A model generated the notes under the pieces. The model was not told where the DNA came from. It made no database searches and saw only the letters and a program-made list of their open reading frames with translations. A stretch of 60,395 nt of DNA from a virus. How positions within the stretch are numbered: the stretch's first letter is position 1; the number at the start of each line of letters is the position of its first letter. The stretch covers positions 1 through 60,395 of IMG/VR virus record IMGVR_UViG_3300025647_000037, one strand, 5' to 3'. This document shows positions 37,422 through 37,624 of the stretch, one piece after another. A program made the translations under genes and the position numbers.

Positions 37422-37453
37422 TTTGGATTGAATCAACTTCTGTCCTATGTTTG
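37422..37453 (+). promoter_or_regulatory. Promoter (TTTG-N20-TATGTTTG) in front of a candidate small RNA
   Basis: TTTG at 37422-37425, a 20-base spacer, and TATGTTTG at 37446-37453: the best full -33/-7 match to the Bacteroidota consensus in the window. Transcription would start near 37457, with no open reading frame downstream before a terminator. Confidence 0.68.
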
Positions 37454-37456
37454 TGT

Positions 37457-37624
37457 CAACAAGAGAGCGCAGTCGGTGCGTACGTCCATAGATTGCATGA
37501 CCACTCAGGTCGGACGGCAGTTGTGTTCGAATCCCAACCTCTCTCTACTGCAAAGGGTGGTATCTTTGTGGGTTATTGTGTGTGGGGGATAAGGGGGTTC
37601 GCCATCTTGGCGGCCCCCTTTCTT
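37457..37624 (+). ncRNA. Candidate structured small RNA with tRNA-like fold
   Basis: About 165 bases without a credible reading frame, framed by its own promoter and terminator. The 5' part folds like a degenerate tRNA: AGAGAG (37462-37467) pairs with CTCTCT (37539-37544). GCGC-AGTCGGT-GCGT (37467-37481) resembles a D arm, CGTCC (37483-37487) pairs with GGACG (37512-37516), and TTGTG-TTCGAAT-CCCAA (37521-37537) is a T-arm with the canonical loop but one mismatch. The anticodon position is replaced by a 24-base loop that can itself form GACC-ACTCA-GGTC, and the linker between acceptor and D arm is missing, so it should not charge as a normal tRNA. A second hairpin, CAAAG/CTTTG, lies at 37551-37568. 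Class unknown. Confidence 0.45.
37591..37624 (+). terminator. Strong terminator
   Basis: AAGGGGG (37591-37597) pairs with CCCCCTT, with an inner CGCC-ATCTT-GGCG stem, followed by TTTCTT. It closes the lysis operon and the candidate small RNA and isolates the following secretion cassette. Confidence 0.85.

Follow-up and report, generated by a model that had tools for sequence, protein, structure and literature searches.

The window, a 60,395-nucleotide stretch of viral DNA, contains a plus-strand RNA (positions 37461-37546) whose predicted structure, derived by comparison with relatives, is a compact four-helix tRNA cloverleaf. We consider it probable that this is a phage non-coding RNA which keeps the upper part of the tRNA fold (acceptor, D-arm, T-arm and elbow), carries a dispensable hairpin in place of the anticodon and has, as we propose, a role in trans. 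The family to which it belongs, designated E1, has the look of a tRNA mimic not catalogued before, and not of a tRNA that has broken down.

Fold of the RNA and its conservation

The features of the locus are listed in Table 1. The AGAGAG/CTCTCT strands, the D-arm-like hairpin, the T-arm with the loop TTCGAAT and the missing linker (positions 8-9) that were described in an earlier sequence-only reading are all present.

Table 1. Coordinates of the features at the RNA locus in the window.
Feature	Start	End	Strand	Details and basis
Promoter, Bacteroidota type	37422	37453	+	TTTG 37422-37425, 20-nt spacer, TATGTTTG 37446-37453
Whole tRNA-like RNA, family E1	37461	37546	+	Leave-out covariance model R2
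Acceptor-like stem, 5' strand	37461	37467	+	AAGAGAG; pairs with 37539-37545
D-arm	37468	37480	+	CGC / loop AGTCGGT with invariant GG / GCG; model-fitted alignment
Junction pair around variable arm	37481	37519	+	T37481-A37519; alignments
Variable arm replacing anticodon arm	37483	37516	+	CGTCC/GGACG, 11-nt bulge, GACC-ACTCA-GGTC hairpin; sequence
T-arm	37520	37538	+	GTTGTG - TTCGAAT - CCCAAC; alignments
Acceptor-like stem, 3' strand	37539	37545	+	CTCTCTC; comparative alignments
Small 3' trailer hairpin	37548	37571	+	CTGCAAAG...CTTTGTGG; terminator scan
Intrinsic terminator	37592	37623	+	AGGGGG..CCCCCTTTCTT; fold, inverted repeat

The acceptor stem of the window copy consists of six standard pairs and an A37461.C37545 mismatch at the first pair; in relatives the stem shows compensatory GC to AU and AU to GC changes. 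The discriminator position (37546) is T in the window and C in most members. GG is found in the D-loop of every aligned member except L269, and the loop varies solely before it (AGTTCGGT in L263, AGATGGT in L264), the exception again being L269 (6717-6839), in which an insert of ~40 nt takes the place of the short loop. One D-stem pair changes from C-G to U-A in L271/L279, and the Y-R junction pair changes from U-A to C-G among relatives. The T-stem has a conserved U.C (or C.C) mismatch beside the loop-closing G-C pair and becomes GAGG/CCTC in L271/L279 and L265. The T-loop reads TTCRANT in all members, with variation confined to R57 and N59. Both loops obey the tRNA rules in changing at these places only, and the D- and T-loop letters that a tRNA elbow requires are conserved in the aligned sequences.

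Among the checks suggested in the sequence-only reading, ARAGORN did not call the RNA in the window and the single-sequence folding energy was not significant (z -1.39 for 168 nt and -0.53 for the core). Minimum-energy folding of the window copy does not recover the cloverleaf, and comparison was therefore needed; RNAalifold, given a MAFFT alignment of 22 sequences, returned it unaided. Counting sequences and not independent events, we found double-sided changes in six of the 20 pairs of alignment A1 (MAFFT, 22 sequences, not fitted to structure) and in nine of the 20 pairs of alignment A3, to which divergent members had been added (30 distinct sequences) and which was fitted to the model and is therefore biased toward it. 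The proportion of paired cells was 99.8% in A1 and 99.5% in A3. In neither case were any of 500 shuffles as good, and slid registers gave at most one pair for A1 and two for A3. Among the A3 double changes are CG to UA at one pair of the D-stem and, in the T-stem, UA to AU at one pair and UA to GC at another; every helix is therefore supported. The predicted cloverleaf is, on this comparison, kept by compensatory change in every helix.

A covariance model (R2) built without the window copy and its closest relatives (L091, L082 and L094) gave a sole match in the window, at 37459-37546, with 75.5 bits and E ~3e-17, such E-values being rough. The covariance search that had been advised among related phages recovered members in other records as well as the window copy, and loss of pairing without compensation, which had been named as grounds for refutation, was looked for in relatives and did not refute the fold. 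The covariation and the R2 match thus uphold the claim that this phage RNA is structured and folds like a tRNA.

With its tRNA-like T-arm and acceptor and a 24-nt stretch at the place of the anticodon loop, the RNA could be taken for a decaying or pseudogene tRNA, or for a piece of a tRNA retained because an integrase uses it as attachment site; a decayed tRNA kept for its 3' end had indeed been proposed. We reject these readings as very improbable. Pairing is held by compensatory changes in all helices, the conserved D-arm included, across 30 distinct sequences, there is no match to the tRNA model in the window, and an attachment site would conserve one half alone, without compensatory pairs.

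The arm in the anticodon position is variable. The 24-base loop that had been noted there is present, closed by CGTCC/GGACG, but holds a hairpin of its own (GACC-ACTCA-GGTC), which makes the arm a 9-bp helix carrying an 11-nt bulge. Arms in relatives range from 12 to ~80 nt, the shortest being CATC-UACG-GATG. Several members have a stem of just 4 bp closed by a UNCG tetraloop, and arms with a UNCG cap occur in L114, L122, L128, L129 and L139. These UNCG-capped arms show that no anticodon is needed; the arm varies freely and the 24-nt loop is one of its forms, and there is therefore no anticodon and none in decay. The earlier suggestion of a decoy for anticodon nucleases becomes unlikely, since an anticodon loop is missing from every member and UNCG caps the arm in several. 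That arms differ in sequence as well as length, and that the bulge at 37488-37498 could pair elsewhere, would suit a regulatory or antisense RNA with the arm as its working part and the tRNA core as a stabilizing scaffold. We regard this as improbable, as the conserved part of the family is the core and not the arm, and the several members with just a 4-bp UNCG hairpin have nothing left to pair.

Predicted transcription unit, distribution and genomic setting

The full TTTG-N20-TATGTTTG promoter of the sequence-only reading is present, with TTTG at -33 and TATGTTTG, which fits TAnnTTTG, at -7; the consensus used is that of Bacteroidota (TTG, ~20 nt, TAnnTTTG). Across the window there are seven exact promoter matches (1.8 expected; simulation maximum 6, n = 100). 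TAnnTTTG occurs 20 times on the plus strand and six times on the minus strand, and plus-strand copies at 984, 28118, 54884 and 56798 lie just 5' of plus-strand ORFs (at 1021, 28156, 54897 and 56810, respectively). The promoter motif recurs at equal position and spacing 5' of the RNA in L002/L091, the closest relative of the window copy. The strong terminator that had been reported is also found (Table 1), and L002 has a terminator-like hairpin of different sequence at the equivalent position; at the position of the 3' trailer, an apparent hairpin of unlike sequence was read by eye in L002. The order lysis operon, promoter, RNA, terminator is common to the window and L002. In both, the RNA is predicted to lie alone between its own promoter and terminator as a unit without a gene, and the proposed tRNA-mimic function of an RNA with its own promoter and terminator is supported at the level of sequence.

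A 31-codon ATG frame (window 37497-37592) begins inside the variable arm and runs past the RNA. The statement that ~165 bases hold no credible frame must be amended to this extent, but most members lack the frame. We also reject, as scarcely credible, a small mRNA for the 31-aa product: a frame of equal length exists in L091, but the C-terminal halves share little, there is no ribosome-binding context and most members lack the ATG.

Family E1 was traced to 43 IMG/VR contigs, the window included. The canonical form, AAGRGRG-CGC-AGTCGGT-GCG-YA-[arm]-GCR-GTTGTG-TTCRANT-CCCAAC-CTYCYYT, accounts for 40 of these (window included; counted from IMG/VR pattern scans) and a divergent form for the other three (L265, L271 and L279). 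Eighty relatives were reached via the 102-aa gene just upstream of the RNA, among them L002, which shares its contig with L091, and IMG/VR pattern scans found the same core at other genome places. A covariance search of 39 whole records gave a strong match in 27, with one copy in nearly all. The exception is G020, probably an assembly end, where two copies lie at inverted ends of the contig; another record (G010) has one divergent copy. An exact 24-mer search of viral contigs gave no match because the acceptor differs. No family member was present among the matches listed for bacterial genomes (17-mer D-arm scan, filtered; four chance-like sequences left), in the sequenced phages and plasmids searched, or in Cellulophaga phage phi38:1 and elemoF, which were searched whole. 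A 15-bit match in phi38:1 lies inside a tRNA cluster and is tRNA-like with a decoding-type loop, and so is not a member. The same cluster contains an apparently unannotated tRNA-like gene (L286, NC_021796.1, 36609-36679). The carrier phages are distantly related to Cellulophaga phi38:1 and to the Flavobacterium elemo phages (portal ~30% identical) and are probably uncultured viruses of marine Bacteroidota, all members coming from metagenomic contigs and hosts being assigned from T9SS-type genes and the distant phage relatives. We found no description of this RNA family in the literature covered, which was that outside subscription papers.

In the window lineage no partner gene is consistently linked to the RNA. 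L129 and L139 have another gene setting, with a putative terminator directly 3' of the RNA. In most other members the RNA lies on the same strand in a region of small genes, often 5' of a conserved gene of ~200 aa which has no Pfam or PHROG match. In some of these small-gene-region genomes a promoter lies between the RNA and the next gene, from which we conclude that the RNA is not simply a leader.

Other RNA-like elements share these regions, usually an E2 hairpin or E4 on the 5' side of E1 and sometimes E3, E4 or E5 on the 3' side. E2, directly before E1, is a hairpin with a conserved loop region TGAAACGTCA and a pyrimidine tail (L099, 9532-9588; L104, 4317-4370; ~20 other loci); it is terminator-like yet has conserved letters. 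E3 is a second tRNA-like RNA of ~130 nt with the T-arm GGTGG-TTCGAYT-CCACC, a conserved CCTTCYACCCTTTACCRAGGG and apparent covariation in its acceptor (L100, 10557-10690; L104, L110, L138, L263, L268, L270, L271, L273 and L094). No anticodon was seen in E3, and ARAGORN made no call where it was scanned. E4 is a conserved intergenic block of ~170 nt (GTCAGGTGTGGTGGGG ... GACTGACGGCTCGGAAAGACGAGC) located 5' or 3' of E1 (L098, 1740-1870; L113, L114, L128 and L265), with no Rfam match where tested. In L128 (3738-4675), and also in L131 and L133, a homing endonuclease gene (PHROG 314) lies directly 3' of the E1-E4 pair. Further conserved intergenic blocks, E5 and E7, occur at L098 (~1945-2160), L110 and L269 and as an upstream insert in L094 and L132; these join E1-E4 in differing orders, which suggests modular RNA arrays. 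E6, a conserved block of ~200 nt (GACCGGCCC...AGACATCGGGTT...AAGGCTATAGGCTGA), occupies the slot of the window's tRNA-like RNA just 3' of the 102-aa gene in L010-L013, L018-L021, L031 and L032, with no Rfam match in those scanned. Two tRNA-like sequences of other phages (L274, 9396-9468; L277, 1042-1109) look unrelated, have no clear anticodon and were not called by ARAGORN.

As the RNA lies on the sense strand between co-directional genes or beside other RNA elements in most relatives, a cis role is conceivable there: the tRNA shape would be an RNase P/Z cleavage signal or a 3'-end protector for polycistronic transcripts, and the excised RNA would have no job. The phage M3 RNA and C4 antisense RNA, also small and tRNA-like, are RNase P substrates (PMC11143913) and so have a tRNA-processing enzyme as reader, as is proposed for E1. 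We nevertheless consider a purely cis element rather unlikely. A predicted terminator follows the RNA in the window, L002, L129 and L139, the window and L002 units have their own promoter and no gene, the letter-for-letter conservation goes well past the need of a processing signal, and there is usually one copy per genome and not many punctuation copies. The stand-alone units argue for a trans-acting product, and we favour a trans role on these grounds, with a cis role possible in most genomes.

Relation to known RNA classes and proposed role

Rfam, including its tRNA, tmRNA and Y RNA models, gave no match at the gathering cut-off, and none for the locus at E 5. The tRNA model RF00005 had no window match even at E 10 (control positive in 14/14 genomes), and relatives match it solely at separate tRNA-like places. 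A relaxed ARAGORN call of a 'tRNA-Pro with 17-nt intron' was dismissed as noise, as the same setting gives 147 genes in the window. Of the features of a tRNA, the RNA has the D-loop GG (L269 apart) and the T-loop TTCRANY; where a tRNA has its 7-nt anticodon loop, with U33 and the anticodon itself, it has the 24-nt bulged arm, or UNCG in others. ARAGORN in tmRNA mode and Rfam were both negative for tmRNA. The tRNA-like domain of tmRNA is alike in having an acceptor and T-arm with another helix in the place of the anticodon arm, but the window RNA lacks a tag reading frame and pseudoknots, and its D-loop GG is normal.

T4 species 1 and 2 are phage stable RNAs found beside tRNAs, and resemble E1, as do GOLLD and ROOL, in being phage-encoded non-coding RNAs. 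GOLLD and ROOL, whose function is unknown, are often in tRNA/RNA clusters (PMC12286853); neither matches E1 in Rfam, and GOLLD is often over 800 nt, compared with 65-130 nt for E1, and differs in fold and sequence. Bacterial YrlA, a non-coding RNA of 90-150 nt, likewise contains a tRNA-like module, made up of D, T and acceptor arms, and this module can bind another machine, PNPase (PMC8394870). In YrlA, however, Rsr is bound by a long 5'/3' stem, and E1 has neither such a stem nor an Rfam match; the TROVE (Rsr) protein was found in none of 14 records, which were of phages and not hosts (control positive in Deinobacterium).

Our best reading of E1 is an anticodon-less tRNA mimic that is close in structure to human mascRNA/menRNA. 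Although those two RNAs have neither linkers nor an anticodon and their D-arm is reduced, the elbow still forms in them and both RNase P and RNase Z process them; mascRNA does not become aminoacylated (PMC11693755). E1 shares with them a linkerless cloverleaf of ~60 nt, a short D-arm, a predicted two-G elbow with the T-loop and the absence of an anticodon. In contrast to E1, they are eukaryotic and are cut from long nuclear RNAs (MALAT1 and MEN-beta); there is no sequence relation, and E1 is phage-encoded, with its own promoter in some genomes.

In the mechanism that we propose, the RNA would be transcribed and its ends then removed, either by the host's RNase P and RNase Z, suggested because they read the elbow and the acceptor/T stack, or by exonucleases. 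CCA-tailing is possible, and a stable RNA of 65-130 nt, unable to decode, would accumulate. More speculatively, it may serve in trans as a decoy or an adaptor for a factor of the host (or phage) with affinity for the tRNA elbow or acceptor end, which it would occupy or recruit. RNase P/Z, for which a decoy had been suggested in the sequence-only reading, may be among such factors. Several observations count against this explanation: the A.C mismatch at the first acceptor pair of the window copy, the want of a consistently linked partner gene in the window lineage and, for the CCA-tailing step, the C discriminator of most members, which the human CCA-adding enzyme, at any rate, uses poorly (PMC4477674). 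A broader reading, which we offer tentatively, is of a dedicated phage stable-RNA class in which anticodon-less mimics, in modular arrays with E3, block or redirect a host tRNA-binding factor, perhaps a processing enzyme, a decay machine or a tRNA-sensing defence.

Anticodon-less tRNA mimics are known from human lncRNAs and bacterial Y RNAs, but no phage family of the free-standing kind is known to us. From the strictly conserved elbow and the disposable fourth arm we predict that the target of E1 reads the tRNA core alone. The identity of this target would reveal which host tRNA activity these phages must engage, and the family marks a group of uncultured phages with intergenic regions full of uncatalogued conserved RNA-like elements.
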